From Candidatus Acetothermia bacterium (lineage in GTDB: Bacteria > Bipolaricaulota > Bipolaricaulia > Bipolaricaulales > Bipolaricaulaceae), in assembly GCA_003566155.1 (NCBI GenBank), contig PXEP01000010.1, positions 1 to 48,345 on the forward strand: 48,345 nucleotides of DNA. Direction: 5' to 3'. Positions 4,269 to 47,497 of the stretch are shown here, piece by piece. The notes beneath the pieces are model-generated. The model was not told the DNA's origin and made no database searches. It worked only from the letters and a program-made list of their open reading frames with translations. The position numbers were made by a program, and so were the translations under genes. Numbering within the stretch: position 1 is the stretch's first letter; each line of letters begins with the position of its first letter.

Positions 4269-4607
4269 ATCCTCCTCCACTGCGCCCAGCATACACGGGG
4301 GAGGTTCGTCGAACCAATGGGACCTCCTACGGCGCTCGGGCGAAGCGTGCCCGGCAACAAGCTCTCTCTGGCTGGAACAAGAGCCGGGTTCGGGTTGCCC
4401 CTGTACACCACTCTGGGCTACGCTCAACGGGCGACTAAAGGGGGGTAGGCGTGAGCACAGCTTGGGGTGACCTGTGGGCTCGGGGAGGCGTACCCGATAT
4501 TCGAGTGGAGGAAGGCATGCATGCCAGGCGGTGAGGGGATTATGCCTGTGCGCCGTGGCCCTTATGAGGAAGCAGTGAATCCCCGGCCCATTGCGCAAAG
4601 ATCACGT
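4269..4607. other. Divergent intergenic region between P-type ATPase and fabF
   Basis: This 339-base spacer holds the upstream regions of two divergent genes. Open frames crossing it on either strand are out-of-family extensions of the flanking genes. Three upstream in-frame starts for the right-hand gene (ATG 4521, ATG 4542, GTG 4575) have purine-rich SD-like stretches just before them, so translation could begin up to 29 codons earlier than annotated. No clear -35/-10 pair was found. Confidence 0.5.
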
Positions 4608-5867: not shown

Positions 5868-6949
5868 TGGAAGTTCCCAAGCTGCGCATCGGGGAACTGA
5901 CAGCTGATGTTCCCATAGTGCAAGGCGGGATGGGTGTACGTATCTCCATGGCTTCGCTGGCTGCGGCGGTGGCGAACGAAGGGGGGATAGGCACCATCTC
6001 CAGCGTGGGACTCGGGGATCTGGAACGGGGAGGGCAAGAGTACGAGCGTATCTCTAGGGAGGCGCTGCGGGAAGAGATCCGCAAAGCCCGCTCTATGACC
6101 GACGGGCTCCTGGCAGTGAACTTCATGGGGGCGTTGAGCAATGTGGAAGACCTGGTGGGCACAACAGTCGAAGAAGGAATTCGACTGGTGGTCTTCGGCG
6201 CTGGACTGCCTATGAGGTTGCCGGAAATGGTCCCCGATCCTTCTGTCTATCTTGTCCCCATAGTCAGCTCGCCGCGCGCCGCCGAGCTCATCCTCCGTGC
6301 TTGGGCAAAACGCTACAAGAGAACGGTTGATGCGCTCATCTTGGAAGGCCCCCTTGCGGGAGGGCATCTGGGCTTCTCCCCCGAGGAGCTTGACCACTCA
6401 GACGATTTTGCCCTGGAGAAGCTTCTTCCGGCTCTACTGGACACCGTGCGTCCGTACGAAGAGCGATTTGGTAGAAAAATCCCGGTCATCCCGGCGGGAG
6501 GCATCTTCGATGGTCGGGACATCGCTCGCCTGCTCAAGCTCGGCGCGGCAGGGGTGCAGATGGCGACGCGATTCGTCTGTACATGGGAATGCGACGCGGC
6601 CCAAGAGTTCAAACAGGCGTATGTAGAGGCCAAAGAGGACGACATCGTCATCATTAAGAGTCCGGTAGGGCTCCCTGGACGCGCAATCCGCAACAAGTTC
6701 CTGGCCGAACTGGAGCAAGAGGGGAACAAGCGGGTACAGTGCCCGTACCGTTGTCTCACAGTGTGCAAGGCGTCCGAGGCACGGTTCTGCATCGCGAAGG
6801 CTTTGCTCACATCCTACAGAGGGGATGTGGAAAACGGGCTTGTCTTCTGCGGCCAGAACGCACACCGTATACAACGCATCGTCTCTGTACACGAGCTTAT
6901 GAGCGAGCTCATGAGCGATCTTCGCACTGCGTTGGAGGAAGAACTGTAA
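5867..6949 (+). CDS. NAD(P)H-dependent flavin oxidoreductase, nitronate monooxygenase/FabK family
   Basis: A 360-residue TIM-barrel FMN enzyme of the 2-nitropropane dioxygenase/FabK superfamily. Visible features are the N-terminal PIVQGGMGV, GPLAGGHLGF with the conserved His167, and the phosphate-binding IPAGGIFDGRD and GAAGVQMATRF. A cysteine-rich C-terminal segment (Cys292, 296, 300, 308 and 328; CPYRCLTVC) marks the subgroup often seen in anaerobes. AGGAGGGGG lies 7 bases before the ATG, and the ATG shares one base with the fabF stop, so the two are translationally coupled. The pairing with KAS II makes an enoyl-ACP reductase (FabK-like) role attractive, but nitronate oxidation or another flavin reaction cannot be excluded. 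The Cys cluster might bind metal or Fe-S. Confidence 0.85.
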   Translation: MEVPKLRIGELTADVPIVQGGMGVRISMASLAAAVANEGGIGTISSVGLGDLERGGQEYERISREALREEIRKARSMTDGLLAVNFMGALSNVEDLVGTTVEEGIRLVVFGAGLPMRLPEMVPDPSVYLVPIVSSPRAAELILRAWAKRYKRTVDALILEGPLAGGHLGFSPEELDHSDDFALEKLLPALLDTVRPYEERFGRKIPVIPAGGIFDGRDIARLLKLGAAGVQMATRFVCTWECDAAQEFKQAYVEAKEDDIVIIKSPVGLPGRAIRNKFLAELEQEGNKRVQCPYRCLTVCKASEARFCIAKALLTSYRGDVENGLVFCGQNAHRIQRIVSVHELMSELMSDLRTALEEEL

Positions 6950-7050
6950 CCGCTGGCGTACCGTTGGGGAACGTGTAGTGGAGAGACTCATATTGTCCCT
7001 GGAGTTGCTGGGTAACGTAGCGTCTATAATTGGCGGAGGAGTGGCGACGG

Positions 7051-9339
7051 ATGTCTCAAACGGAGCGAAGGCTAGCAGCGATTATGGTCACTGACATCGC
7101 AGGCTACACTGCGATGGCTCAGAGAGACGAGAACCTGGCTCTGGAGATCTTGGAGGAGCACCGGTCGGTACTGCGCACCCAGTTTTCCCGCCATCGCGGC
7201 CGGGAGGTCAAGTCGATGGGAGACGGCTTCTTGGTCGAGTTCTCCAGCGCGCTGGACGCGGTGCAGTGTGCCGTTGACATTCAACAGGCCCTGCATTCGC
7301 GCAATGCGGGTCTGCCGGAAGATCGGCGGGTGCTGGTGCGGATCGGCGTTCATGTGGGCGATGTGCTCGACAGAGAGGGAGATCTATTTGGTGACGGGGT
7401 GAACGTGGCGTCGCGTATCGAGCCGCTCGCCCGACCCGGCGGTGTTTGTGTATCGCATCAGGTCTACGGCTACGTGCGCACCAACATGCGCGTTCCGTTC
7501 GTCAGCCTTGGAGAACAGGAACTGAAGAACGTCACCGGTTCAGTCGAAGTGTACCGTGTGGTCTTACCGTGGGAGGAGCAGCCTAAGGCCGAGGCGGAAC
7601 GTACTCGGGTTGCGGTGTTACCCTTGGCGAACATCAGCCCGAACTCGGAGGATGCCTACTTTGCAGAGGGTATGACCGGAGAGCTTATTTACACGCTGTC
7701 TCGTGTTCCTTCCCTGCGGGTCATAGCACAGACCTCCGTGATGAAGTACAAGGACAACCGCAAGAGCGTTGCCGAGATCGGCCATGAACTCAATGTGGGA
7801 ACGGTGATTGAAGGAAGCGTCCGCAAGTCCGGCCAGCGGGTGCGCATCATGCTTCAGCTGATCGATGCCCGCACCGAGGAACACCTGTGGTCGGAAGCCT
7901 TCGATCGCAATCTGGAAGATGTGTTCGACTTGCAAACCGAGGTCGCACAGCAGGTTGCGGAAGTACTGCAGGTTGAACTGCTAGGGCGGGGCCGTCCGCG
8001 GGCTTGTCACCATACCGCTCCGGATATGGAAGCGTACATGCTATATCTCCAGGGGCGGCACTTCTGGAACAGACGGTCGGAATACGGGGTCAGGCGTGCG
8101 ATCGAACTGTTCGAGCAGGCGATCGAAATCGACGGCTGCTATGCGGCTGCTTATGCCGGCCTGGCCGACACATATGTGGTGTTGGTGAACTGGGGCTACG
8201 CGTCGAAGAAGGATGCGTTGAAAGAAGCGCGTCGAGCAGCAGAGAAGGCCATTACGCTGGATCCCGAACTGGCCGAGGCGCACGCATCGCTCGGGCTCGT
8301 GTTATCGGAGGAAGACGAGGATCTCTCCCGGGCCGAGGAGGCGTTTCGCAAGTCCATCGAACTCAATCCCAGCTACGCTCCTGCTCACCACTGGTTGGCC
8401 AACGTCTTGTTCGCCACAGGCAGAACTGAGGAAGCACTGGAAGAGGCGCTTAAGGCACTCCGCCTTGACCCCTTGTCGCCGACGATCGCCACCGTGGCCG
8501 GGGACTATTTATACCACGTTGGCAGATATGACGAGGCGATTGCTCAGTGGCGCCGGGCGCTGGAGATCGCTCCGGGCTTTGTCCGTGCCAGGATGTCCTT
8601 GGCGAATGCTCACGAAGCTGTCGGAGACTGGGAGCTCGCCGAAGGAGAGCTCAAACAGGCGATCGCCACTGATCCTGAGAGCCCGCAGCCTCGGGCCGCG
8701 TACGGCGAGCATCTGCTCCGGTTGGGTCGTACAGAGGAGGCGTTGGCTGAGCTGCGCAAGGCAGCTGAGGATACCGGCGGCCCGTTTCCCACCTATCATT
8801 TCGGATTGGCCTTGGTGTTGGCGGGCGCTGAGGACGTGGCGCACTCCTTGCTGGACAGATTCACGGCCCGAGATGACGACTGGCCGGGGCTGCGCCTGGC
8901 GGTGTTGCTTGGCGACGCTCTCGCGGGCCACTATGATCGCGCCCTCGAGCGTTTTGATGAGCTCAAACGCGCATACAATCAGCAACGCCGGAGGCTTGTC
9001 TACGAGATTGATGCCCTCAGCGGCCTTGTGGAGGCGGTCGGGGGGTACCATGAGAAAGCCCGTGCCAGGCTAGAGGTTCTGGAACAGGCAAGCGATGATG
9101 TCGTGCCTAAGACCTTGGTGGGGCTGACGTACTGCTGGCTCGGCGAAATCGAGCGAGGCTTCTCCGAGCTATCCGAGGCGGTGCGAGCGCAGGAATCCCT
9201 GGTGCGGATGATCAAGGTGCTCCCGCTTCCGGCGCGAGCCCGAGATGACAAACGCTATAGCGAGCTTCTCCAGTCGCTGAATCTGCCGGCTGAAGAGTCC
9301 TCGCGTACCCCCTCCTCCAAACAGAGGGAAGATGAGTGA
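7051..9339 (+). CDS. Class III adenylate cyclase fused to TolB/FlgO-like domain and TPR repeats
   Basis: A 762-residue signalling protein. Residues 1-175 form a class III nucleotide cyclase: metal Asp15 (VTDIAGYT) and Asp58 (MGDGF), substrate-selecting Lys54 and Asp111, transition-state Asn118 and Arg122 (VNVASR). All catalytic residues are present, and the Lys/Asp pair predicts ATP as substrate and cAMP as product. Residues about 185-310 match the TolB N-terminal/FlgO-like fold (RVAVLPLANIS, VIEGSVRKSG). Residues about 330-760 are TPR-type helical repeats (for example PSYAPAHHWLANVLFATGR). No signal peptide or membrane segment is seen. ATG 7051 follows GGAGGA by 10 bases; a TATAAT at 7025-7030 lies just upstream without a good -35. 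It ends 15 bases from convergent fpg. No CRP-like receptor is in the window. Confidence 0.9.
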   Translation: MSQTERRLAAIMVTDIAGYTAMAQRDENLALEILEEHRSVLRTQFSRHRGREVKSMGDGFLVEFSSALDAVQCAVDIQQALHSRNAGLPEDRRVLVRIGVHVGDVLDREGDLFGDGVNVASRIEPLARPGGVCVSHQVYGYVRTNMRVPFVSLGEQELKNVTGSVEVYRVVLPWEEQPKAEAERTRVAVLPLANISPNSEDAYFAEGMTGELIYTLSRVPSLRVIAQTSVMKYKDNRKSVAEIGHELNVGTVIEGSVRKSGQRVRIMLQLIDARTEEHLWSEAFDRNLEDVFDLQTEVAQQVAEVLQVELLGRGRPRACHHTAPDMEAYMLYLQGRHFWNRRSEYGVRRAIELFEQAIEIDGCYAAAYAGLADTYVVLVNWGYASKKDALKEARRAAEKAITLDPELAEAHASLGLVLSEEDEDLSRAEEAFRKSIELNPSYAPAHHWLANVLFATGRTEEALEEALKALRLDPLSPTIATVAGDYLYHVGRYDEAIAQWRRALEIAPGFVRARMSLANAHEAVGDWELAEGELKQAIATDPESPQPRAAYGEHLLRLGRTEEALAELRKAAEDTGGPFPTYHFGLALVLAGAEDVAHSLLDRFTARDDDWPGLRLAVLLGDALAGHYDRALERFDELKRAYNQQRRRLVYEIDALSGLVEAVGGYHEKARARLEVLEQASDDVVPKTLVGLTYCWLGEIERGFSELSEAVRAQESLVRMIKVLPLPARARDDKRYSELLQSLNLPAEESSRTPSSKQREDE

Positions 9340-9354
9340 ACGACACCGACTCGG

Positions 9355-10143
9355 CTATCGTTGGCACTCGGGGCAGAACCAGCCACGCCGTCCGCCCAAC
9401 CGCAGCGCCTGTAGGGCCGCGCCACATCGTGGGCAATTGGTAGCCTGCGCCCGGTTGCGAAGCAGGTAACGCTCAGGCATGAGTAACGGGTCGGCATGCG
9501 CCTCAACCGCTGTCTGCAGCACCTCTCGGGACGATCTGTACAGCCGAGCGAGTTCCTCTTCCGTGAGCTCCTGTGCTTTTCTCTTGGGAGAAAGCCTCGC
9601 TTGAAACAGAATCTCGTCCGAATAGATGTTGCCGATGCCGGCAAGTGTGGATTGGTCCATCAGTGCGGACTTCAGCGTTCCCCGGTGCTCGGTGACTCGC
9701 TGGCAGAACACGTCATGGTCCAGCCTCGGATCCATGGCGTCCGGGCCGAGCGCCTTCGAGCGCAGGAAATCCTCCAAGTCCTCAATCCAGCGGATCCTTC
9801 CTAGCTGGCGTTGTGAGACGTATGCCAAGCGGTGCCCGCCTTCCAGACGAAACGAACACCGAGTGTACTCAGGCAGTGACTCGCCCTCCTCGAGGCATTC
9901 CAGGCGCCCGGACATCCCGAAGTGCATGGCCAGCAAATCTCCATTCAACAGGCCGGCGAACAGGTGCTTGCCGTGACGGAGCGCTGAGGAGAAGCGCTGT
10001 CCCGTGAGGCGTTGCTCTAACTCCAGTTCGGTGAGACCTTCGACTACCTTGGTGCTGTTAACCTCCACGCTGGCGATGCGGCGGCTCAAGGCACAGGTCT
10101 CTAGAACACGGCGGTACACTTCGACATCCGGAAGCTCTGGCAT
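9355..10143 (-). CDS. mutM: Formamidopyrimidine-DNA glycosylase (Fpg/MutM family)
   Basis: Base-excision repair glycosylase/AP lyase that removes oxidised purines. The start is fixed by the family: MPELPDVEV, where Pro2 becomes the catalytic N-terminal proline and Glu3 the general acid. GGGGAG directly precedes this ATG, so the 37-codon upstream extension of the frame is not used. HGKHLF (catalytic Lys), the H2TH region GIGNIYSDEILF and a C-terminal four-Cys zinc finger (CPRCG...FCPECQ) are all present. Length is 262 residues (family about 270). DVEVYRR places it among Fpg/Nei-like members; Fpg is the better fit. It is divergent from the feo operon, with its start 70 bases from that promoter. 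Confidence 0.92.
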   Translation of the reverse strand: MPELPDVEVYRRVLETCALSRRIASVEVNSTKVVEGLTELELEQRLTGQRFSSALRHGKHLFAGLLNGDLLAMHFGMSGRLECLEEGESLPEYTRCSFRLEGGHRLAYVSQRQLGRIRWIEDLEDFLRSKALGPDAMDPRLDHDVFCQRVTEHRGTLKSALMDQSTLAGIGNIYSDEILFQARLSPKRKAQELTEEELARLYRSSREVLQTAVEAHADPLLMPERYLLRNRAQATNCPRCGAALQALRLGGRRGWFCPECQR

Positions 10144-10213
10144 CTCCCCACACTTTGGAAGCCATGCGGCCAGTGTGCAACCCCTGCGATGTGAAGCCAG
10201 TATGTGTGGTCGG

Positions 10214-10242
10214 TTGACAGCGGGGAGCGGGCCGGGCACAAT
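10214..10242 (+). promoter_or_regulatory. Sigma70-type promoter of the feo/methyltransferase operon
   Basis: A perfect -35 TTGACA (10214-10219), a 17-base spacer and a -10 CACAAT (10237-10242) place the start of transcription near 10249, about 35 bases before the first small gene. The AT-rich stretch 10241-10266 immediately downstream (AATCAAAATTGACATTCAG) contrasts with its GC-rich surroundings and could be a metal-regulator operator, but it does not match a Fur, DtxR or MntR box I can recognise. Confidence 0.75.
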
Positions 10243-10283
10243 CAAAATTGACATTCAGTATCAAAGAGCGGGGGTACCGACCG

Positions 10284-10430
10284 ATGCAGACAAACGGGAA
10301 CTGTTGCGGGCGAACTAGAAGGTATATGTGGGCGGTTGTCGGGACCCTAGCCGTGGTGATCATCGTGGCCCGGGTACTCGCTGCTGCAGGGCCTACAGCC
10401 TGGGCCAGCCTCACCGGGGGGGTAACTTGA
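10284..10430 (+). CDS. Small single-pass membrane peptide at head of feo operon
   Basis: A 48-residue open frame with an N-terminal polar part containing a Cys-Cys pair (NCCGRTRR) and one hydrophobic helix at about 15-36 (MWAVVGTLAVVIIVARVL). It is the first frame after the promoter, and its TGA overlaps the TTG start of the next gene (TTGA), which suggests translational coupling. It resembles no named family I recognise. Small Cys-containing membrane peptides occur at some feo loci, but there the cysteines follow the helix and here they precede it. It could be an uncharacterised FeoB accessory subunit, or a leader whose translation opens the downstream start. Confidence 0.5.
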   Translation: MQTNGNCCGRTRRYMWAVVGTLAVVIIVARVLAAAGPTAWASLTGGVT

Positions 10431-11050
10431 ACCAAGGGGTACTGGAACGGTCCGCAGGTGGCCCGGGTCCGGTTGCTCGGGTTACTTCTTGCCTGGAGCA
10501 ATGGATTTCAAGCGTGCCCGTCTGTGTATCCGTGTATACTCGAATGTACCGGGGTGTGGTGGACAAGGAGATCGCACTGGCTGGAATAACCAGACGTGAT
10601 CGTGTCCTGAACGTGGGTTGTGGCGCTGCCCCGTTTACCGGGCTGCTCGTTGCCCGCAAGACGGGCGCGCGGGTGTTGTGCGTGGAGCGTGACGATGAGG
10701 TAGCCGCGCACGCTGAACGATCAGTAGCCGGGCAGAGCCTGGGGGGCGCTGTGGAAGTGCTCGTAGGCGATGCCATGGCTGGAGTGCCGGAGTTCGATGT
10801 GGCGGTCGTTGCTCTCCAAGCCACCCCAAAACTCGAAGTGTTGCGCACTCTGGCCAAATGCTCGGGACCGGAGGCGCGGTTGGTGGTCCGTGACTCGGCC
10901 AAGTGGTGCCAGGACATGTATGACCGGCTGCCCCCGGGCCTGACGCCTCGCGCTTCTGTGTATCACCACATGGGCGCGCTGCACAGTTCAGTGCTCTACT
11001 ACAGCAGCGACATCCGCCGGTTCTGTGAGGAGGGAGTTGGCCTTGGGTAG
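10427..11050 (+). CDS. Nicotianamine-synthase-like SAM-dependent methyltransferase fold protein (copy 1)
   Basis: A 207-residue Rossmann-fold protein with SAM motif I at 60-72 (VLNVGCGAAPFTG), an acidic residue ending strand 2 (CVERDD) and an upstream helix VYTRMYRGVVDKEIALAG. The GCGAxPFT loop and the Tyr/Glu-rich helix before it resemble nicotianamine-synthase-like enzymes, which transfer aminobutyrate rather than methyl from SAM; this is a distant match by eye. The start is TTG at 10427 after GGGGGG, overlapping the previous stop. It is a diverged paralogue of the next gene, shorter and without a FeoA domain, and overlaps that gene by 8 bases. A plain methyltransferase is the alternative. 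Confidence 0.65.
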   Translation: MNQGVLERSAGGPGPVARVTSCLEQWISSVPVCVSVYTRMYRGVVDKEIALAGITRRDRVLNVGCGAAPFTGLLVARKTGARVLCVERDDEVAAHAERSVAGQSLGGAVEVLVGDAMAGVPEFDVAVVALQATPKLEVLRTLAKCSGPEARLVVRDSAKWCQDMYDRLPPGLTPRASVYHHMGALHSSVLYYSSDIRRFCEEGVGLG

Positions 11051-11909
11051 GCATAGGCGACGCAGAGGCAGGTGCGCCGCGGCCGATCCTAGGGGATACT
11101 TGGGACAGGTCTTGGGTCGCGGTGCCCTGGCAGTCGAGCGGGCCAACTGCCGGTGGCCAAGGCTTTCCCGCCGGTACGGCAGGATGTTCTACGAGCGGTT
11201 GGTGCAGGAAGAGGTGGAACTGGCCGGAGTCAAGGCCGGCGATCGGGTGTTACACGTAGGTTGTGGGGCATTCCCGTTCACCACTTTGGCGCTTGCTGAG
11301 CGGGGATGTGTGGTGGTGGGGATTGACCGGGACGAGCAGGCAGTGGCAGCCGCGCGCAGAGTTGTCTCCCAGAAGGGGCTCGACGGCCATGTGGAGATCC
11401 GCCACGGAACCGGCGAGTCGGTCGACTGTGCCGATTTCAACGCGGTATGGGTCTCGCTCCATGTAACTCCCCGGGATGAAGTGATCCATAACTGCCTCAC
11501 TTCCCTAAGGCCTAAGGGGAAGCTTGTTCTGAGGAATGTCGCCGGTCCGCTCAAACTTCTGTACAACGCCACTTCGCCTGCCGCGGGTGCGACCCAAGCT
11601 CACGTGCGCACAGCGCGGTCCCAGGCAAGGAGCAATTTGGTGACCATGGTCGCCGAGAAGCTTCCCTCCACCGACAAGCAGCGGGTGGTCCTGAGCGGGC
11701 TTGCGGCGGGCTGCCGTGGCACGATCGCCGCCACCGGCAACGGGCATCCCTTGCTCGAGCCGTTGGGGATCAGACCGGGGAGGCAGATATGCTTGCGATG
11801 CATCCAGAAGCTCGGCGGATCGGTGGTAGCAGACCTTGACGGACGGCGAGTGGCGATCGATCGCCAGCTGGCCGAGCAAATCGTGGTGAATCCCGTTTCC
11901 GGTGACTGA
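11043..11909 (+). CDS. Nicotianamine-synthase-like methyltransferase fused to FeoA domain (copy 2)
   Basis: A 288-residue fusion. Residues 40-170 repeat the architecture of copy 1: RRYGRMFYERLVQEEVELAG, SAM motif VLHVGCGAFPFTT (69-81) and VGIDRDE (Asp95). Residues about 214-283 are a FeoA/SH3-like domain (LSGLAAGCRGTIAA, LLEPLGIRPGRQI, VAIDRQLAEQIVV), the small partner that activates FeoB. The start is TTG 11043, eight bases after AGGAGG; the frame is open upstream to a GTG at 11025 that has no SD. FeoB follows after 5 bases. Fusing a SAM enzyme to FeoA is unusual and links its product or activity to Fe2+ or other metal uptake. Nicotianamine-like metallophore synthesis is an inference. Confidence 0.75.
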   Translation: MGRHRRRRGRCAAADPRGYLGQVLGRGALAVERANCRWPRLSRRYGRMFYERLVQEEVELAGVKAGDRVLHVGCGAFPFTTLALAERGCVVVGIDRDEQAVAAARRVVSQKGLDGHVEIRHGTGESVDCADFNAVWVSLHVTPRDEVIHNCLTSLRPKGKLVLRNVAGPLKLLYNATSPAAGATQAHVRTARSQARSNLVTMVAEKLPSTDKQRVVLSGLAAGCRGTIAATGNGHPLLEPLGIRPGRQICLRCIQKLGGSVVADLDGRRVAIDRQLAEQIVVNPVSGD

Positions 11910-11914
11910 CCGTC

Positions 11915-13636
11915 GTGAGCGCTGAGCGTTCCCGCACTAAGCGTGTGGTGATGATCGGCCCGCCCAATGTGGGCAAGAGCGTGATATTCAACCGCCTCAC
12001 GCGGATGAATGTCGGTGTGGCGAACTACCCCGGAAGCACGGTGGAGTTCTCCGAAGGTGCCCTGCGCCTTGCCGATTCCCCAGTGAAATTGATCGACGCC
12101 CCCGGCATATACACCCTTCAGCCGGCAAGCGAGGCGGAGAGCGTGGCGGTTGCCTTGCTGGAAGACGCCCCGGACTTGGTACTGTGCGTGCTCGACGCGA
12201 CGAACCTGGAAAGCAGTTTGTATCTGCTTCTGCAGCTCATGGGTCTCGGCCTGCCGTTGATGGCGTGCATCAACCGCACGGACCTGGCCGAAGAACGTGG
12301 ATTGGCTGTGGACCATGAGTACCTGGCGCGGCAGCTGGGTGTACCGACAGTGGCTACTCGGGCAGTAACGGGGCAGGGCCTGGAGGAGCTTCGGTCGCGG
12401 TTGAACGGAGCCTTGTCCTCCGAGTTTTCACCCCCGGCAGTGCGGCCTGCCCCCTCGTGGGCGGAAGCCGAGCGCCTGACGCAACAGGCCAGAAGAAGTG
12501 CCGGGCGCAGCGAGGACACCCTGCGAGATAGGTTGGGCGATGCCCTTATCCGACCGTGGCCCGGCCTTCCGGCGGCTGTGTTGATTGTGGTGCTGGTATT
12601 CGGGTTTGTGATCGGCGTGGGAATGGGACTCAGACGGTGGGTGCTCCTTCCTTTCTTCGGGGAACTGATTATCCCTCAACTGGTGAACCTCGTGCAGGCG
12701 CTGCTGGAGCCAGGCCTGGGCCGCGAGGTGCTGGTAGGGGAATACGGGCTTCTGACCAAAGGGATCGAGTGGCCGTTCACGTTGGTCTTTCCCTATGTAC
12801 TGTCGTTTTATGCCGCATTGAGCGTGTTGGAGGACAGCGGGTACATGGCGCGCTTGGGAGCGTTGCTGGACGGATTGCTGAAGCGTATGGGACTATCTGG
12901 CACAGCGGTGATGCCGATTTTCTTGGGGTATGGATGCGGTATCCCAGCCCTGATGGCTACGAGAGCACTGAGCTCGCACAAGCAGCGGCTGACTGTCTGC
13001 GCCATGGTCTGCCTGTCGGTTCCATGCATCTCACAGACGGGCGCTTTCGTGTCTTTGCTCGCCGAGCGTTCGGTGGGGGCGCTGGCCGGGGTGGCGATGG
13101 TGTCGATCTTGGCGATGCTAACCACGGGCGTGTTGGCAAGTAGACTGCTTCCCGGCAGACCCAGTACGACCTTGATGGAGATCCCCGAACTCCTCCTTCC
13201 CCGGGCGGATGTGCTGGGAAAGAAGGTGTGGGCTCGGGCTCGTCACTATTTGGCCGACGGTGTCCCCGCTGTGATGGCAGGGGTGGCGTTTGCCGCGCTG
13301 CTCTATGAGACAGGCGCCATGGAAGCCGTCGGGCGCGCGCTGAGCCCCGTGATAACCCGGTGGTTACTGTTGCCTGAAGAGGCAGCGGTGCCGCTGCTAT
13401 TGGGGGTGTTCCGGCGCGAACTGGCGGTACTACCGCTCATGGATATGGCCCTCTCGCCCTCTCAACTGTTTACCGGTGCCATCGTTGCCTTGTTCTATGT
13501 CCCGTGTATCGCCATGGTGGCGCTGGTGGCGCGAGAATTCCACATCCGATTGGCGATCGTGGTGCTCGTGTTCACTACGGTGTTCGCACTGTTCGTGGGC
13601 GGACTGTTCGCGCGTCTGGGCCCCCTGGTCCTGTAA
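11915..13636 (+). CDS. feoB: Ferrous iron transport protein B (compact FeoB)
   Basis: A GTP-gated inner-membrane divalent-metal transporter of 573 residues. The N-terminal G domain has G1 GPPNVGKS (15-22), a switch I NYPGSTVE, G3 DAPG (61-64; usual DLPG) and G4 NRTD (120-123; usual NKxD). A helical spacer and about eight membrane helices with two Gate regions follow. The first Gate reads GYGCGIPALMATR (339-350) where typical FeoB has GCNVPA; Cys341 is kept but Asn-Val is replaced by Gly-Ile. The second Gate keeps YVPCIA. The GTG start comes 5 bases after the FeoA-fusion stop. The altered gate could change metal preference (for example Mn2+), but iron remains the default inference. Confidence 0.93.
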   Translation: MSAERSRTKRVVMIGPPNVGKSVIFNRLTRMNVGVANYPGSTVEFSEGALRLADSPVKLIDAPGIYTLQPASEAESVAVALLEDAPDLVLCVLDATNLESSLYLLLQLMGLGLPLMACINRTDLAEERGLAVDHEYLARQLGVPTVATRAVTGQGLEELRSRLNGALSSEFSPPAVRPAPSWAEAERLTQQARRSAGRSEDTLRDRLGDALIRPWPGLPAAVLIVVLVFGFVIGVGMGLRRWVLLPFFGELIIPQLVNLVQALLEPGLGREVLVGEYGLLTKGIEWPFTLVFPYVLSFYAALSVLEDSGYMARLGALLDGLLKRMGLSGTAVMPIFLGYGCGIPALMATRALSSHKQRLTVCAMVCLSVPCISQTGAFVSLLAERSVGALAGVAMVSILAMLTTGVLASRLLPGRPSTTLMEIPELLLPRADVLGKKVWARARHYLADGVPAVMAGVAFAALLYETGAMEAVGRALSPVITRWLLLPEEAAVPLLLGVFRRELAVLPLMDMALSPSQLFTGAIVALFYVPCIAMVALVAREFHIRLAIVVLVFTTVFALFVGGLFARLGPLVL

Positions 13637-38946: not shown

Positions 38947-39465
38947 GCTCCCTCCTTTACGACTATGCCCCGGGGCCATACGGCAGCCCTTGGCTCACGA
39001 GCGCGCACCTCGGCCGCTTGCAGTCCCGGTGTGCTCCGTCCCGCACCAAGCATGCACGGTCGCTGGAGGTGCGGGTTCATGGGCAAGTATACAGCCGCTT
39101 TCCGACTGCCGCCTAGTTAATTCACGCTCCGCCCGCCCAGGGCGAACCGACGCGCAGTCATCTTGTTGCCCGACAGGACAGCGGAGGCGTAGGGTGCTCT
39201 TTGAGCGCCCCATCAGTGCAACTCCGCGAACTCCTCAGCCCTAACGGCAACGGTTTCCCATTTGCCTTCAGCCAGTGCCTCGCCCACGAGGTTGATCCTT
39301 ACCTGGACGCTGGCGGCCGCGCAAGCCTACTGCCGCTCAACTCAGCAAGCAACCCGTTTCCGTGGGCGTGCGGTTAAGCCCAGCACAGAGCCTGTCAGTC
39401 TTGGCCGTTAGTCCATGAAGCGTGGTATCCTACGGAAGCTGTCGAGGAGGGAGAGTGATGCGCCT
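38947..39465. other. Intergenic region, 519 bases, carrying a maturase remnant
   Basis: The segment 39201-39377 is a decayed copy of the C-terminus of the radical SAM gene at 41600-43105 (annotated separately). The rest shows no open frame with an SD. A weak promoter for the next gene (TTGGCC-19-TATCCT, -10 at 39425-39430) lies near its end. Confidence 0.5.
39201..39377 (+). pseudogene. C-terminal fragment of a second radical SAM/SPASM maturase
   Basis: Read in the frame ending at TAA 39375-39377, this gives a segment starting SPNGNGFPFAFSQCLAHEV that aligns without gaps to the last 45 residues of the intact maturase; 33 of 45 are identical by eye. It shares the terminal ASNPFPWA motif and a run of identical DNA (CCATTTGCCTTCAGCCAG). 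The two SPASM-like cysteine positions before it are lost or out of register. No start or upstream domain remains, so this is a relic of a duplicated or rearranged peptide-maturation locus. Confidence 0.8.
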
Positions 39466-40985: not shown

Positions 40986-41343
40986 ACACCAAACTACAAC
41001 GAAGGATGGAGAGCAATCCGCTTGATCAAGCGCACCTGGGGCGGCTGTTCTAGGGCACTCGCGGCACGGCTGGTGTCCGTGTTACCCAGTTGCCCCCTCT
41101 CAGAGGTCTCCCTCTCGATCATCACGGCTTTTCCTCCATTGGGCCAGCTCCCCGAAACCCAAGCGGCCCCTAACCCGGCCGAGTCAAGCCGCATGTTCTG
41201 TGCGCATTCGCCGATCGAAGCTTGTAAAGTCCGTCGAGAAGAAAATGAGCATGCTGTCTTGATCGCGCGGGAGAGGAGATATTGGCTCGCCGAGCGCGAC
41301 CAACTATAATCCATCATCTTAAGTACGCGGAGGCGGTGGGTCT
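40986..41343. other. Intergenic region before the RiPP precursor, 358 bases
   Basis: This holds the precursor promoter (annotated separately) near its right end. A 95-codon forward frame (41022-41309) has an unusual composition, no SD, and overlaps the promoter, so it is judged spurious. Confidence 0.4.
41282..41310 (+). promoter_or_regulatory. Promoter of the RiPP precursor gene
   Basis: TTGGCT (41282-41287), exactly 17 bases, then a perfect TATAAT (41305-41310). Transcription is predicted from about 41317, giving a 27-base leader that contains GGAGG before ATG 41344. This is among the best promoter matches in the window. Confidence 0.7.
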
Positions 41344-41562
41344 ATGGCAACGGAGAAGGAGTTCTACGAGTTGATAGGGCGTGCGATCGCGGATGGCGAA
41401 TTTCGCGGGCAGATGAAGGAGGACCCGCAAGCTGCTGCAGCCTCTGTTGGCGTCGAACTCTCTCCAGAACAGGAAGAGCAACTCAGACGTGCCGACCTGG
41501 GAACGCTGGCCACGGAGTTAGAGCAACGCGCCTCAAAGTTCTGCTCCCCGATGATCGGCTGA
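41344..41562 (+). CDS. Candidate RiPP precursor peptide with nitrile-hydratase/Nif11-like leader
   Basis: A 72-residue peptide. Residues 1-58 form a helical acidic leader: FYELIGRAIADGEFRGQM, DPQAAAASVGVELSPEQEEQLRRADL. This pattern (D-x-x-F-R, D-P-x-A, G-x-x-L-[ST]-x-x-E) is that of NHLP/Nif11-like and Franean1_4349-type RiPP leaders. The tail RASKFCSPMIG is the likely core, with one cysteine (Cys67) available for a thioether. The gene has its own strong promoter and lies 37 bases before a radical SAM/SPASM gene. No GG cleavage site is seen. The precursor call is an inference from leader type and context. Confidence 0.75.
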   Translation: MATEKEFYELIGRAIADGEFRGQMKEDPQAAAASVGVELSPEQEEQLRRADLGTLATELEQRASKFCSPMIG

Positions 41563-41599
41563 TGCTGCGCAGCCTGCGCTGACCCGGGCTCTTGCCCCG

Positions 41600-43105
41600 A
41601 TGCGTGTCAGCTCCTTTACCGTGGTTTCGACAGAGCTTTCCAATGGCAGCCATGTGCTGGCCAATGCCATCACGGGGGCTGTGGACGTGGTCTCCCCTGA
41701 GGTGGGCGCGCCACTGTGGGAGGCGCTAAGCGAGAGTGCTACAACCGGACCCTGGCAGGTCTCGCCCGAGCAGGCGGCCCATGTCGTAGCATCCCTGGGA
41801 AGTAGCAAACGCTCCCAGCTCTCGGCCCGCGGGCATCTCACCACCCTCCCGGTAGTCTCGGAGCAGCACCTCATGAGCGCGATTGCGCACGGAACGCACA
41901 AGATCCAGGCGAGGCAACCTGTAGTGGCCATTCTTCCCAGTCTTGAGTGCAACTACCGTTGTACGTATTGCTTCGAGCGCCCCCTTCAGCACGATCTCGA
42001 AGCTCGCTCTGGAAACGACAAGTTCGACGGTGTCCTCATGACACAGGACCACCTCGAACCTTTGTACGGAGCGATCGACGCCATCCTGGCGGACGGAGAT
42101 GCGAGACAGGGTCGCATACTGATGCTCTACGGCGGGGAGCCGCTTGACCGACGCAATGCGAGGCTCGTTACCGCCCTCGTCGAAAAAGGCCTACAGAGAG
42201 GCTACACGTTCCACGCCATGACCAACGGCCACGATCTGGACCACTACCTGCCACTACTGGGGAAGCGAGGAATCGGTAGGGTATACGTCACCCTCGACGG
42301 CCCGAAGCATATCCACGATGGGCGGCGCGTGGTCACGAGCGGCGAGTCCTCGTTCGACGCGATCACGCGCAACATCCAATTGCTCATTGACGCAACCGAC
42401 GCTGAAATCGACCTAAGCATGCGCCTTGACCCAAGCAACACCCCCTGGGCCAGCGAAGCGCTAAGGCTGTACGATACCTGGGACTGGACGGCGAACCCGC
42501 GCGTCACCATCGGGGCACGTCCGGTCCACGTCACGGGGGCCAATGGCGCGGTTCACCCGGCGCTCAACGAGTCGGACCTACTTGCGCACCTTCGCCAGGC
42601 CACAGCTCCGTACGCCCGGGTGGTTCCCAGCCGCATTGCCGGGCTTGTCGTGCGGATGCTGAAGCCTGTGCTGGAATCGGGCGCCCGCCTGCAGGCCGAT
42701 GGGACGCATTGCTCAGCAAACAGCGGGAGCTACTTGTTCGCTCCGGACGGGGCAATCTATGCTTGCTGGGGAGCTCCCTGCGAGAGAGAATGCAAGGTGG
42801 GTACGTACATGGGACCAGACGGGCTGAGCTTCGACACGGAGACTGCCAACCGTTGGTTCACGAGAAAGGTCGCCGACATCCCTGCCTGTCGTAGCTGTGC
42901 GTACGCCCTCTTCTGCGGTGGGGGTTGCGCCCTTCATGCAGAGCGCAACAACGGCGAACTGTTCAGCCCTAACTGCAACGACTTCCCATTTGCCTTCAGC
43001 CAGTGCCTCGCCGATGAGGTGGATGCCTACCTGGACGTCGGCAGCCGCGCAGGTCTACGGTCACTTAACGCAGCGAGCAACCCGTTCCCGTGGGCGCACC
43101 GTTAG
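41600..43105 (+). CDS. Radical SAM/SPASM peptide maturase
   Basis: A 501-residue enzyme. The N-terminal ~105 residues are a possible leader-recognition region. The radical SAM cluster motif is CNYRCTYC (Cys117, 121, 124), followed by LMLYGGEP (175-181) and VTLDGPKHIHDGRR (230-243). The C-terminal SPASM region has Cys371, 389, 394, 398, 430, 433, 439, 443, 459 and 469, enough for two auxiliary 4Fe-4S clusters. Enzymes of this build install thioether, C-C or epimer modifications on peptides. The ATG has no clear SD and lies 37 bases after the precursor stop, so the two are likely cotranscribed. A relic of a close paralogue lies at 39201-39377. Confidence 0.92.
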   Translation: MRVSSFTVVSTELSNGSHVLANAITGAVDVVSPEVGAPLWEALSESATTGPWQVSPEQAAHVVASLGSSKRSQLSARGHLTTLPVVSEQHLMSAIAHGTHKIQARQPVVAILPSLECNYRCTYCFERPLQHDLEARSGNDKFDGVLMTQDHLEPLYGAIDAILADGDARQGRILMLYGGEPLDRRNARLVTALVEKGLQRGYTFHAMTNGHDLDHYLPLLGKRGIGRVYVTLDGPKHIHDGRRVVTSGESSFDAITRNIQLLIDATDAEIDLSMRLDPSNTPWASEALRLYDTWDWTANPRVTIGARPVHVTGANGAVHPALNESDLLAHLRQATAPYARVVPSRIAGLVVRMLKPVLESGARLQADGTHCSANSGSYLFAPDGAIYACWGAPCERECKVGTYMGPDGLSFDTETANRWFTRKVADIPACRSCAYALFCGGGCALHAERNNGELFSPNCNDFPFAFSQCLADEVDAYLDVGSRAGLRSLNAASNPFPWAHR

Positions 43106-43499
43106 CACCAGTACGTGCCCGACGGCCGCACAGCAGGGTAGCCTGAGGAAGGGAATCTGCGTGATTGCGAGAGGGTTCGCACAAGGCACAGACCGAAGCG
43201 GAGGAACCGGCCAAGTATGGCACATTGGACCCACGGAACGGTTTCCACCGCGAGCCATGAACGGCTAAGCGGGCAACACAAACATCGCCGATCTTGTCCT
43301 CTATGTGCCGACGAAAAGCCTGCACTATGTTCTGCTCTCAGCATGGCCTCCACTGTAGCTCATGCCAAGCGGCCCGTAGACACGCGGACAGGTGGCAGCA
43401 AGACCGAAGAGGGCGACTTGCGTGGCATATGACCCCAGAGGAGGTTGTGGTCAGGGTGAGAAGGCGTGTAGGCGTGGCTGACGGTTGCGCAGGCACCTC
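43106..43499. other. Intergenic region after the maturase, 394 bases
   Basis: Two overlapping forward frames (43217-43432 and 43294-43518) lack SDs and look spurious, although 43290-43400 encodes clustered Cys/His codons in one frame (CRRKACTMFCSQHGLHCSSC). That could be a decayed zinc-finger piece or chance. No terminator with a T run was seen. Confidence 0.35.
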
Positions 43500-44003
43500 T
43501 CAGCCCTCGCCCTCCTGAGTGATCTGCGCAAGTAGGATGCTCTCCATGACGTAGATCCGGGCGAGCTTGATCCGGTAGGGCCACTCCTCCTCGAGTTCGT
43601 AGACGCCGACTATCGGAAACTCGACCTTGCTGCCGGTGCCCGGAATCCCTGCATAGTCGCCGATATGTGTTCCCACCACGGTCCACTCCATGACTGCCTT
43701 TCCGTCGCCCACAAAGAGTTCTACGTCACTCTTTTGGGCTTCGAAGGACACGTTGTAATTACGATGGATAACGCGCTCAAGCTCTTCCCGTCCCGTGGCC
43801 ATGGGCTCGCCCCTGGCCATGTCCATGAACACAACATCTTCGGTCACATAACGGTAATCGTACAGTGCCTCAGGATCCTCGGGCGAGATGTAGCCGAGCA
43901 TGACCTGGTTTGTGATCTCCGGTCCCGGGCCTGCCTGCAGGGTCAGCCCTAGCCCCATGACTGTAACCAACGCTATCAGCGCCGCTCTGCGCTCGTTTCG
44001 CAC
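43500..44003 (-). CDS. Secreted SnoaL-like (NTF2-fold) protein
   Basis: A 167-residue exported protein: signal peptide about 1-24, then an NTF2/SnoaL-like cone (YRYVTEDVVFMDMARGEPMATGREELERVI; WTVVGTHIGDYAGIPGTGSKVEFPIVGVYELEE). The GTHxGDxxGIPxTG segment is typical of the SnoaL-like polyketide-cyclase/limonene-hydrolase superfamily, which includes many non-enzymatic ligand-binding members. GTG 44003 follows AAAGGAGGG. It is transcribed opposite to the maturase; a link to peptide processing is not shown. Confidence 0.8.
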   Translation of the reverse strand: MRNERRAALIALVTVMGLGLTLQAGPGPEITNQVMLGYISPEDPEALYDYRYVTEDVVFMDMARGEPMATGREELERVIHRNYNVSFEAQKSDVELFVGDGKAVMEWTVVGTHIGDYAGIPGTGSKVEFPIVGVYELEEEWPYRIKLARIYVMESILLAQITQEGEG

Positions 44004-44311
44004 AACGCCCTCCTTTGAATCCTAACACCCCCCAAGGTCCGTGCCGCCACCCAAACGGGGGGGGGGATCCTCCACGTCAGGCAACTCATCATCCGACCAC
44101 AACGGACCTTCCTCTTACAGATCCTTAACTTGATCGTGCTCTCCTTGAGCACTCTTGCCTCTCAAAAGGTGTGAGCGCTACGCATTATCGCAGTCCATTG
44201 TCGACCGACGCAAGGCATGGCCGGCGATCAGCGACAGGGTCTTCTCACGTGTCATCCAGGCCGTTGACTTCATCGCCCCGAGCGCCAAGGTAGCTTCGGC
44301 ATTGGGCCGTG
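44004..44311. other. Intergenic region with a G10 homopolymer
   Basis: Ten consecutive G (44057-44066) follow CCCAAAC just upstream of the secreted protein gene; this could be slippage-prone or an assembly weak point. A 62-codon forward frame at 44155-44343 has no SD or recognised match. No HicA-like toxin frame was found upstream of the HicB remnant. Confidence 0.35.
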
Positions 44312-44569
44312 ATGCCCCAGGAGGAGTGGTCGTTGATCGCTGAGCATGTTCAAGCAGCGCTCACCCAAGTCAGCTATGAGATCATCGAGGGCGGGGAGCA
44401 TCTCTATGGAGAGTTGCCTGCGGTTTGCGGTGACTGGGCCACCGGCAAGAGTGTAGACAAGTGCTGATGTTGTTTGCACGAGGTTCTGGAAGGATGGACA
44501 ACCGTTTGGCTGCCAGGAGGTCAAGAAAACCCTGTGGTTGGCGGTTTCACCATCGGCCCTGTCGAGTAG
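44312..44569 (+). pseudogene. HicB-like antitoxin remnant with in-frame TGA
   Basis: From ATG 44312 the frame reads SYEIIEGGEHLYGELPAVCG, then DWATGKSVDKC, stops at TGA 44465-44467, and continues in the same frame with CCLHEVLEGWTTVWL and QENPVVGGFTIGPVE to TAG 44567. Across the stop this follows the HicB/DUF1902 pattern (YEI-GE-YYGEIP-GxWA-GKT-EEC-R-LxEVLExW-L-G-PIPxIxG); the TGA stands where Arg (CGA) is usual. No HicA toxin lies beside it. It is a single-nonsense pseudogene or a sequencing error in an orphan antitoxin-like gene. Confidence 0.7.
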
Positions 44570-44581
44570 CTGGAGATGCTC

Positions 44582-45928
44582 TTAACTGCTGGTGTCAGCG
44601 TCATAAGATGTGTTGCGCAACCGGTCGGCCTGGCGGCGGAGCGACTGGAAATAGTCGGTCTCAGTGATCTCCTCGACCTGGCGCTGTTTCTCCGTCTCGT
44701 CGATCTGGATTTGGAGTTCCTCGATGGTTCGCCGCAGGGCAGTCTCGCGGGCCTCGACCTGTCGGGCGTTGTGGGCGGCCACCGCGGCCTGAGGGGCGAT
44801 GGTTTCGAGAAGACGAAGCGAGTGCGCGTCGAAAGCGTTCTTCTGTTTGGCAAGCACTTCCAGCACACCCACGCACCTGTCCCCGAAGAAGAGAGGAGCC
44901 CCAACCAGGCTTCCGAAGTAGGCGCTGTCCCGCTCGTTCCCAACCGCACAAACTGTCAAGGGAGATGTGGTGGCCTCTTCGAGGAGGAGGCCCTGGCGGT
45001 GCTCCCAGATCCAACGGACTGCGTCGGAAGGCAGAGTTGAAGACGAGGCGTCGGAGGATGCAAAGACGCCACGCTGGTCACCGAGCTCCAACTGCTGTGT
45101 GCTGGGCGAGCATAGATACAGTCTAACGCCGGAGGCTGCAAGCATCTCCTGCACGTGTGTGGTGATGGAACAAAGCGTGGTCGCAAGGTCGATGCTGCTG
45201 GCATTCATGCTCTGGGAAATGTGAAACACCGAACGTAGCTCGAGGTTCCGCTGCTCCACCTCCTTGTAGTACCGGTTCCGTTCCCTGAACGTGCTGAGTT
45301 CCCGGCGATAGAGCCCGAAAACGGCCATGAACATGGCCACGCCCAGCGAATTGGCGAGGATCATCGGCAGGGCGGCAGGACGGCCCACCTCTATCCATGC
45401 CGTCTGGATGGTGCTGAGTCTGAGCATTTCGGTCGGGTGGCCCGCAAACACCACCGCCAACATGATGTGACCGGCCTCCAGAAGGGCTCCACCTAAGCCG
45501 GCATGCAGCGGGCGTAGGAGTCCCCTCCTGCGGTAGATCAACCCCGCCGCAAGGCCGATGAGCAACGTACTCAACGCGCAAGGAATCGCTGTAAGGCCGT
45601 AAGCTTCCCAATCGGCGATACCCATGAGCAGACGCTGGGTCCCGCCCATAGTCCCCGCAACCACCCCCGGCACGACGCCCCCCACGAGTCCGGCGATCAT
45701 CGGCCCCATGTCGCGGATGTTGATCACACCCCCGAGCACCGGCAGGCCGGAAAGCGTTCCGTAAATGCTGAACAGGCCGAAGACCACACCCAGGAGGATT
45801 TTGGCGCGACGCGATGAGGTGCGTTGCTCTGCAAACGGGCGTAGCAGGGGAACCCGGAATAGGACATACGCAAACAGGACGATAATGGCGGCCTTCTCGA
45901 GGAACGAGACGACAACGCCCCAGTTCAT
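44582..45928 (-). CDS. LytS-type 5TM sensor with GAF domain and coiled coil, no kinase
   Basis: A 448-residue membrane sensor. Residues about 1-210 are the 5TMR-LYT module (LSGLPVLGGVINIRDMGPMIAGLVGGVVPGVVAG is its hallmark; split here as GGVINIRDMGPMIAGL and GGVVPGVVAG). Residues about 235-395 form a GAF domain (SMNASSIDLATTLCSITTHV; SAYFGSLVGAPLFFGDRCVGVLEVLAKQ). Residues 398-435 are a charged coiled coil. The protein then stops: there is no HisKA/HATPase, GGDEF or PP2C domain. It must signal through a partner or regulate by binding. It is divergent from the M50 protease gene, with 168 bases between. Confidence 0.85.
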   Translation of the reverse strand: MNWGVVVSFLEKAAIIVLFAYVLFRVPLLRPFAEQRTSSRRAKILLGVVFGLFSIYGTLSGLPVLGGVINIRDMGPMIAGLVGGVVPGVVAGTMGGTQRLLMGIADWEAYGLTAIPCALSTLLIGLAAGLIYRRRGLLRPLHAGLGGALLEAGHIMLAVVFAGHPTEMLRLSTIQTAWIEVGRPAALPMILANSLGVAMFMAVFGLYRRELSTFRERNRYYKEVEQRNLELRSVFHISQSMNASSIDLATTLCSITTHVQEMLAASGVRLYLCSPSTQQLELGDQRGVFASSDASSSTLPSDAVRWIWEHRQGLLLEEATTSPLTVCAVGNERDSAYFGSLVGAPLFFGDRCVGVLEVLAKQKNAFDAHSLRLLETIAPQAAVAAHNARQVEARETALRRTIEELQIQIDETEKQRQVEEITETDYFQSLRRQADRLRNTSYDADTSS

Positions 45929-45997
45929 TGCCCGCTAACCCACCCAGTATCCACGTGTCATTTCCCCGTCCGTAAAGGGCCGCTCGTTGACCGCCAA

Positions 45998-46009
45998 CAT
46001 GGTACCATG
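45998..46009. promoter_or_regulatory. CATGGTACCATG palindrome in the sensor/protease divergent region
   Basis: A perfect 12-bp palindrome flanked by imperfectly matching CCGCC and GGCGG arms. Its position in the 168-base divergent spacer suggests an operator for a dimeric regulator of one or both genes. Confidence 0.35.
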
Positions 46010-46048
46010 GCGGCAGATGAGGGCAATGTGAAACTAAGGTAAAACGGC

Positions 46049-46074
46049 TGGCCGTCCTCTAGCGGCGACGGCCA
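46049..46074 (+). promoter_or_regulatory. Hairpin in the leader of the M50 protease gene
   Basis: TGGCCGTC (46049-46056) pairs perfectly with GACGGCCA (46067-46074) around a 10-base loop, 22 bases before ATG 46097. There is no T tract, so it is not a standard terminator; it may be an RNA regulatory element. Confidence 0.4.
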
Positions 46075-46096
46075 CCGGGTTAGGGCGTAGCGCACA

Positions 46097-47497
46097 ATGA
46101 CAGAACAGCAAGATGATAAGAAAGCTTTGGGGATTTGGAGCACGCTTAGCGCCAGTGTGACGGAAGAGGCGCCTGCGGGCACCGACATATGGACGGTCGT
46201 TCGAGACCGACTGGATAGGTCAAAACGACGGCCCCGGCAGAGCCCAGTCGTCGAAGTGGCAAAGCACACAACTTCCAAAGGGGAGACACAGTACGTGCTG
46301 CGGAACACATGCTCCGACACCTATCTCATGCTGGACCAGCACGACTTCTTCTTGTGGGAGCTGATGGATGGCAGGCACTCGCTAAGGGACATGGCCGTGG
46401 CCTACTTTGCAGCCCACGGAGCGTTTCCCTTCGAGCGGCTGAGCAGTCTCGTCGACCGCCTGAGAGCCAACGGCCTCCTGGACGAACGATCCGTAAACAT
46501 CTTCTCGGCCGTCGGGGGCCACGTCCATCTCCCGCAGCCTCTGCAGCGCCTGAAGCATCTAGCCGATGTGCTCTTCCGTGGCGAGTTCGTCCTTCCCAAT
46601 GCGGACCGCTTGTTTGGCGCGCTGTACCGGCGAGGTGGCTGGATTGGCTTTGCCCCACCGGCCATGATCGTGCAGGTGATGCTCGTTGCAACGGGGGCTG
46701 TGCTGCTCAGCTGGCAGTGGGCCACCGGAGCCCATGCCGCCGGACAGGTGGCCGAATCGGATGGTATCGGCTTGCTATCCCTGCTCCTCTTCCTGGGCTT
46801 TGGGTTCCTTGTGCATGAGCTGGGGCATGCATTGGCGGTAAAGCACTACGGCAGAAAAGTCCGTCGCTGTGGCGCGCTGTTGCACTATGGCCGCCCCGTT
46901 CCGTTTGTCGACACCTCCGACATGTGGATGGCGCCGCGTGGGGCGAGGATCGTCGTATCGTTCGCCGGACCGTGGGTAACCGCAGTGCTAGGAGGCATCA
47001 GCGCTGTGGTGGTTGCCACCTCGTCGAATCCCTTGGTGGAGGGCGTCTTCTTCCAAAGCGCAGTCGTCTGCTACCTCGCGTTCCTGGTCAATTTAGTCCC
47101 GTTCCTCGAACTCGACGGTTACTACATCCTCATGGACTGGCTGGAGATTCCCTCGCTGCGGACCAAAGCGCTCGCCTTCCTGAGGGCCGGCATGTGGAAG
47201 CAAGCGCTGCGCGGATGGTCTGAAGCAGGGCGTGCTGAGCGGATCTACGCTACATACGGAGCCATGTCCGTGCTAGCGATGGTATTGTTCCTGATGGTAG
47301 GCGTCCACGTGTGGCAAACGAACGTGGTCCAACTTGTGGGGACCCTGCAGGCTGGAGAGGACATCCTCGCTGCGGTGTTGACCGGAGGCATCGGTGTCCT
47401 TGCGGGAGTCCCTCTTGCGGTCGGGCTAGCGGTGCGCGGTTTCCTGTTTGCAGAGCGGGTGCTGTCGTACCTCAGGCGGCGCCAGCAAGCGGCGTAA
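46097..47497 (+). CDS. M50-family membrane zinc metalloprotease with PqqD-like N-terminal domain
   Basis: A 466-residue site-2-protease-like enzyme. Residues about 55-135 form a PqqD-like winged-helix region (VLRNTCSDTYLMLDQHDFFLWELMDG is its core; then SLRDMAVAYF, LVDRLRANGLLDE), the fold that grips RiPP leader peptides. Five or six membrane helices follow, with HELGH (240-244) as zinc site and LELDGYY (Asp340) as third ligand. Architecture matches 'putative peptide zinc metalloproteases' found with radical SAM RiPP genes, which cut and export the modified peptide. It sits 3 kb from the maturase on the same strand. The start has only a weak SD. Confidence 0.88.
   Translation: MTEQQDDKKALGIWSTLSASVTEEAPAGTDIWTVVRDRLDRSKRRPRQSPVVEVAKHTTSKGETQYVLRNTCSDTYLMLDQHDFFLWELMDGRHSLRDMAVAYFAAHGAFPFERLSSLVDRLRANGLLDERSVNIFSAVGGHVHLPQPLQRLKHLADVLFRGEFVLPNADRLFGALYRRGGWIGFAPPAMIVQVMLVATGAVLLSWQWATGAHAAGQVAESDGIGLLSLLLFLGFGFLVHELGHALAVKHYGRKVRRCGALLHYGRPVPFVDTSDMWMAPRGARIVVSFAGPWVTAVLGGISAVVVATSSNPLVEGVFFQSAVVCYLAFLVNLVPFLELDGYYILMDWLEIPSLRTKALAFLRAGMWKQALRGWSEAGRAERIYATYGAMSVLAMVLFLMVGVHVWQTNVVQLVGTLQAGEDILAAVLTGGIGVLAGVPLAVGLAVRGFLFAERVLSYLRRRQQAA

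Follow-up and report, generated by a model that had tools for sequence, protein, structure and literature searches.

Whether a short reading frame, a radical S-adenosylmethionine (SAM) enzyme and a membrane protease make up a pathway for a ribosomally synthesized and post-translationally modified peptide (RiPP), and what peptide they would yield, is the question raised by a locus of Candidatus Acetothermia bacterium (assembly GCA_003566155.1, contig PXEP01000010.1). The window, the whole 48,345-nucleotide stretch that was analysed, is contig C168 of a 1.93-Mb genome that is 83% complete. An earlier note on this DNA had proposed a new RiPP locus, and the proposal gains support from the presence of a precursor of the NHLP clan, a maturase of the radical SAM/SPASM type and an M50 protease fused to a RiPP recognition element (RRE). 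That the locus encodes a radical SAM RiPP is very probable. For the explanation as a whole, a small Os1348-led radical SAM RiPP cluster with leader cleavage by the M50 protease, we estimate a probability of about 0.72. The three genes are intact and lie on the plus strand, with the following parts:

41344..41562, plus strand: precursor gene, 72 amino acids, with an Os1348-family leader of the NHLP clan (NF038399, 58.5 bits)
41344..41538, plus strand: leader, residues 1-65, ending in LEQRASK, the leader-end motif of Os1348 precursors
41539..41559, plus strand: predicted core FCSPMIG, residues 66-72, with a single Cys, placed from the leader-end motif of relatives
41600..43105, plus strand: radical SAM/SPASM maturase, 501 amino acids (PF04055, 2e-10; TIGR04085, 43 bits, cut-off 27)
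41600..41839, plus strand: N-terminal RRE-like domain of the maturase, residues 1-80 (AlphaFold2 model)
41948..41971, plus strand: radical SAM cluster motif C117-x3-C121-x2-C124, invariant in 40 homologues
42710..42976, plus strand: SPASM domain with conserved Cys 371, 389, 430, 433, 439, 443 and 459 (homologue alignments)
46097..47497, plus strand: RRE-M50 site-2 protease, 466 amino acids, probable leader peptidase (PF02163)
46232..46471, plus strand: N-terminal RRE/PqqD-like domain of the M50 protease, residues 46-125 (beta3-alpha3 in the AlphaFold2 model)
46814..46828, plus strand: HELGH zinc motif, residues 240-244 (H240, E241 and H244 each conserved in 90% or more of 33 homologues)
47111..47119, plus strand: LDG motif, residues 339-341 (D340 and G341 invariant)

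Residues 6-62 of the precursor match the NCBIfam model NF038399 above its curated cut-off of 40 bits (E 5e-16). Because the leader passes this cut-off, we take the 72-residue frame, judged from its sequence, to be a real gene and not a chance frame. It is the only Os1348 member over the cut-off among 100 genomes of the host phylum. A tblastn search of plasmids with the precursor gave no match. The description of the precursor as NHLP/Nif11-like holds for the NHLP clan but not for Nif11, none of whose models appeared among its Pfam and NCBIfam matches at E-values up to 1. The classical NHLP leader model (TIGR03793) scored 17 bits where 50.9 are required, and no double-Gly precedes the core.

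To place the boundary of the core, we turned to Os1348 precursors collected from 251 Chloroflexota genomes, 52 of which had matches, and compared the tails of 59 precursors. In 26 of these the leader is followed by the pattern [RN]x[ST][KR], where shuffling of that stretch gives 2.8 ± 1.6; the tighter form (L/I/V)(D/E/G)xRx(S/T)(K/R) is found in 22. The family thus has a conserved leader end, (L/I)(D/E)xRxS(K/R), ahead of a short core, a motif that is not in the NF038399 model. It is shared by the window precursor, where it reads LEQRASK and leaves FCSPMIG. The tail had been put at about ten residues with a single Cys; the one Cys stands, while the core is better placed at seven residues, the exact cut being predicted from the leader-end motif. 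Other Os1348 members, too, have short tails of 7-13 residues, among them SAGRGFI, RPGWFYWPS, MGFARAGCH and LPIVPIFCAAY.

With its CxxxCxxC motif and a SPASM domain bearing seven cluster Cys, the second gene product is predicted to be a radical SAM/SPASM peptide maturase. The AlphaFold2 model of the whole protein has a predicted local distance difference test score (pLDDT) of 88, two plasmid-derived rows having been left out of the alignment used for structure prediction. At its N-terminus, three strands are followed by three helices (residues 7-77; pLDDT about 60-95), the topology of an RRE. The earlier count of up to ten cysteines in the SPASM region agrees with the ten present (371, 389, 394, 398, 430, 433, 439, 443, 459 and 469), but only seven are invariant across 38-40 homologues; 394, 398 and 469 are not conserved. 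The best sequence models were TIGR04463 (103 bits, cut-off 525) and CefB (NF038107; 86 bits, cut-off 600), both far under their cut-offs and both describing maturases whose substrates are long Cys-rich proteins. The models for ranthipeptide or sactipeptide maturases, PapB (58 bits, cut-off 340), SCIFF (58, cut-off 425) and nif11-rSAM (54, cut-off 519), also fell below. By Foldseek the model matched CteB first, followed by an anaerobic sulfatase maturase, TigE and ChlB, and phmmer likewise placed CteB first. CteB (TIGR03974; PDB 5wgg) is thus the closest solved structure and shares the RRE-radical SAM-SPASM architecture, but the SCIFF score shows that the window maturase is not a member of that family, and its precursor is different. 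A single-sequence search of the genome contigs with the maturase gave no match; an alignment query was required.

The predicted N-terminal RRE fold, together with the HELGH and LDG motifs, bears out the earlier description of the third gene product as a leader-binding-type PqqD-M50 protease. Its AlphaFold2 model (pLDDT 87) comprises an RRE-like domain, spanning residues 52-124, and then a site-2 protease fold. Foldseek matched the membrane part to MjS2P (3b4r) and SpoIVFB, and the N-terminus to the leader-binding RRE of TbiB1 (TM-score 0.74 by target length), in each case with high probability and E-values above 0.001. The nearest named family is the daptide protease MpaP (NF041824; 156 bits, under the cut-off of 300); the epipeptide protease model YydH/LiaK (NF058609) gave 50.5 bits, below its cut-off of 225. 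Removal of the daptide leader has been attributed to MpaP, which like the window M50 is an RRE-fused site-2 protease (PMC10036551). No daptide enzymes were identified here, however, the window precursor ends in PMIG and not in a C-terminal Thr, and in our tree the daptide proteases fall outside the group formed by the window M50 and Chloroflexota proteins (92/92; long branches nearby). We consider it probable that the M50 protease is the leader peptidase of the cluster.

This assignment draws on the company that M50 homologues keep. Of the 251 Chloroflexota genomes, 34 have M50 homologues, 52 have Os1348 precursors and 27 have both (Fisher p 9e-16, an optimistic value since the genomes share ancestry). 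Physical adjacency is the firmer link: the M50 adjoins an Os1348 precursor at 10 Chloroflexota loci, nine of which have the leader-end motif (though at L136 the match falls within the leader), and a profile search found further such loci (L270, L274, L277, L279 and L280). The M50 in these loci is fused to cyclic-nucleotide-binding domains. At one of them, L135, the tail ELEQRVSR-MGFARAGCH adjoins an MNIO enzyme (PF05114) and an M50 fusion; this is the only other of the 59 precursors with ELExR. The L135 cluster (G303:C231, about 3189-10428), in which the M50 fusion is of the M50-cyclic-nucleotide-binding-AhpC/TSA type and a cytochrome P450 is also encoded, is an MNIO RiPP cluster whose leader belongs to the NHLP clan, and a 2025 MNIO survey (PMC12452194) apparently makes no mention of it.

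The same family showed other arrangements. At L139, L141, L154 and L270, Os1348 leaders are in frame with low-complexity tails of 130 to more than 1000 residues and adjoin RRE-M50-cyclic-nucleotide-binding proteins; in such cases the leader may mark large proteins for release. A well-conserved Os1348 peptide, ...TLDPRLSK(S/T)xGRGFI, adjoins a very large adenylate/guanylate cyclase-AAA-TPR protein at L155 and L156 and in about ten other Chloroflexota genomes; this neighbour, with the cyclic-nucleotide-binding domains on the M50, hints at cyclic-nucleotide control. In the Acidobacteriota Os1348 loci examined, neither a radical SAM gene nor an M50 gene adjoined the precursor.

The maturase is tied to RRE-M50 proteases independently of the Os1348 leader. 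Of the 15 maturases in the collection that are closest to that of the window, 10 have a same-strand RRE-M50 homologue within 4 kb; the figure is 12 when 25 are considered and 15 when 80 are. About a dozen maturase loci contain a small gene whose leader, ..SLN....(F)SIEELExRLE(T/M).., is followed by a Cys-containing core. These linkages argue that the window maturase, as far as its homologues indicate, belongs to a recurrent, multi-phylum arrangement of radical SAM enzyme and RRE-M50 protease. The ELEQRAS of the window precursor resembles the ELExRLE element, the rest of its leader being of the Os1348 type. In clusters such as L023 (Paraprevotella), L088 (Balneola) and L016 (Ktedonosporobacter), the maturase is homologous over its full length to that of the window (23-31% identity), an M50 is likewise co-located, and a Cys-containing core likewise follows an ELExR element; their leaders, however, are short and non-Os1348 and their cores usually hold several Cys, whereas the window has an NHLP-clan leader and one Cys in seven residues. 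The window cluster therefore seems to be a version of this widespread arrangement with an Os1348 leader.

Precursors of the SLN...SIEELExRLE family were seen at L016, L017, L018, L019, L020, L021, L023, L027, L035, L076 and L088, beside SPASM maturases, many with an RRE-M50, across several phyla. No NCBIfam model matched them, and three maturases and three proteases scanned from such loci reached no curated cut-off.

The surroundings of the three genes bear on how they would be expressed and hold these further features:

41282..41310, plus strand: sigma-70-like promoter TTGGCT-17 bp-TATAAT (consensus scan, 10/12 matches; weak basis)
41329..41333, plus strand: ribosome-binding site GGAGG, 10 nt ahead of the ATG (read from the sequence)
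43500-44003, minus strand: SnoaL-like protein gene, between maturase and M50
44582-45928, minus strand: 5TM-LYT/GAF sensor gene, between maturase and M50
39226..39376, plus strand: decayed, non-functional remnant of a duplicate maturase 3' end (151 bp aligned at 83% DNA identity)

The maturase starts 37 bp past the end of the precursor on the same strand. A promoter at 41282-41310 ahead of the precursor is plausible; the consensus scan placed no other plus-strand promoter-like site within 6.8 kb. The site is present where the earlier note had seen a strong promoter, but the evidence for it is weak, since promoter-like sites are no more numerous than chance would give (2 found against 1.3 in shuffles). 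The M50 gene lies 3 kb from the maturase. Small plus-strand reading frames at 43217-43518 (Cys-containing) and at 41022-41309 gave no matches and were not counted as parts.

Several observations weigh against the proposed cluster. This maturase subfamily was found with an Os1348 leader only in the window: 99 other genomes of the phylum gave no such pair, and a profile search near 80 maturase homologues found no Os1348 leader, so that the precursor-maturase pair, whose absence elsewhere had been named as a refuting outcome, was not seen again. Pairing of an Os1348 leader with a TIGR04463/CefB-like SPASM maturase was unseen in the other family members examined, and other single-Cys cores pair with different enzymes, including MNIO. 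On the supporting side, Os1348 precursors do precede SPASM maturases of another subfamily in two unrelated genomes, a Chloroflexota (L137) and a Theionarchaeon (L138). The maturase reached no curated equivalog, and its chemistry is not fixed by family. Because two opposite-strand genes intervene, the M50 gene is a separate transcription unit outside the precursor-maturase operon. Lastly, genome G004, from a sister genus in the same family, has the M50 (67% identity; L207, G004:C62) with no detectable precursor or maturase, in an assembly that is 58% complete and whose contig breaks off within the M50 gene; its neighbours there are an oligopeptide ABC operon and what is left of the same 5TM-LYT/GAF sensor gene.

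At the archaeal locus of the Theionarchaeon (L138, 4703-7847), the SPASM maturase is accompanied by an Os1348 precursor whose core is LPIVPIFCAAY and by a divergent B12-radical SAM gene.

We propose that the Os1348-type leader would dock on the RRE domain of the maturase, presumably via its end motif ELEQRASK, and that the maturase would then install a radical modification on the FCSPMIG core. Most likely the lone Cys would form one bond within the peptide, with a loss of 2 Da. The membrane M50 may bind the same leader by its own RRE and cut at or near the junction of RASK and FCSPMIG, probably as the later step, and the modified heptapeptide would be released into the membrane or through it. 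The protease itself or a general exporter could carry out export.

CteB is a thioether-forming enzyme, and it is the top match for the maturase in both sequence and fold; related maturases, moreover, adjoin Cys-rich precursors. A Cys-linked thioether is our single most likely product, a choice we hold tentatively. The earlier suggestion of a single thioether or other single-site radical modification is accordingly plausible, with the thioether as one of several options. The radical enzyme might instead make a non-thioether change: epimerisation, a C-C bond involving Lys65 or Phe66, or formylglycine-type oxidation at Cys67. Anaerobic sulfatase maturases oxidise Cys to formylglycine at C-x-P motifs; anSMEcpe is among the closest folds to the maturase, the C-S-P of the core resembles C-x-P, and neither thioether maturase model, PapB or SCIFF, came near its cut-off. 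The core, however, lacks the following Arg demanded by the sulfatase motif. Such a change is possible, at odds somewhat short of even.

A further alternative concerns the protease. The precursor and maturase could be paired while the M50 acts elsewhere, for example with the GAF/5TM sensor, the leader being removed by another protease of the genome. The intervening opposite-strand genes fit this account, as does the retention in G004 of the M50 by the sensor remnant, and the genome encodes two C39 peptidases. These usually need a double-Gly site, however, which the window leader lacks; the incompleteness of G004 and its broken contig blunt that comparison; and the M50 is independently linked both to Os1348 precursors and to the maturase subfamily. 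We consider this account unlikely and retain the M50 as the probable leader peptidase. That the locus is inactive, a recently acquired cluster undergoing loss, is very improbable: the degraded maturase 3' end lies upstream and the same-genus genome G001 is without all three genes, but these are full length in the window with all catalytic residues kept, and their codon make-up matches the host.

The remnant at 39226-39376 has 13 non-synonymous against 6 synonymous codon changes, with Cys459, the last SPASM Cys, replaced by Gly; it is the trace of a former tandem duplication. Composition does not single out the cluster as recently entered foreign DNA, as the GC content at third codon positions of the three genes equals that of their neighbours. 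Elsewhere in the window (11025-11909, plus strand), a methyltransferase-FeoA fusion with a weak nicotianamine synthase match lies just upstream of an FeoB gene (11915-13636), possibly a metal-chelator and iron-uptake unit. A second RiPP-like cluster of the same genome (L287, contig C65, 336-4357) encodes a B12-binding-type radical SAM enzyme, a PqqD-SPASM enzyme, a PqqD-like protein and a C39 peptidase.

Each part of the window cluster is of a known kind; what appears new is the combination of Os1348 leader, SPASM maturase and RRE-M50. We found no characterised example of the maturase subfamily or of an Os1348 system in the open literature, and neither the combination nor the multi-phylum arrangement is named in the libraries or open papers, subscription papers, in which a prior description is possible, lying outside the search. 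More tentatively, we speculate that the window may represent a widespread class in which an RRE-bearing SPASM maturase and an RRE-M50 read a common (E)LExR-type signal, the module having been moved onto an Os1348 leader to give a seven-residue, single-Cys product. In such a shared-signal scheme the module could be moved because both enzymes would need only the leader-end signal.

Leaders of the NHLP clan, SPASM maturases and RRE-fused site-2 proteases are usually treated separately; at this locus all three meet, with a leader-end signal that possibly serves both enzymes. Should both indeed read it, the exchange of leaders between RiPP classes would become an evolutionary route open to testing. 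The seven-residue core would be a minimal substrate for radical chemistry and, should the class exist as we suggest, among the smallest radical SAM RiPP cores. The combination of maturase, RRE-M50 and ELExR precursor offers a search handle for a cluster type found from Bacteroidota to Chloroflexota.

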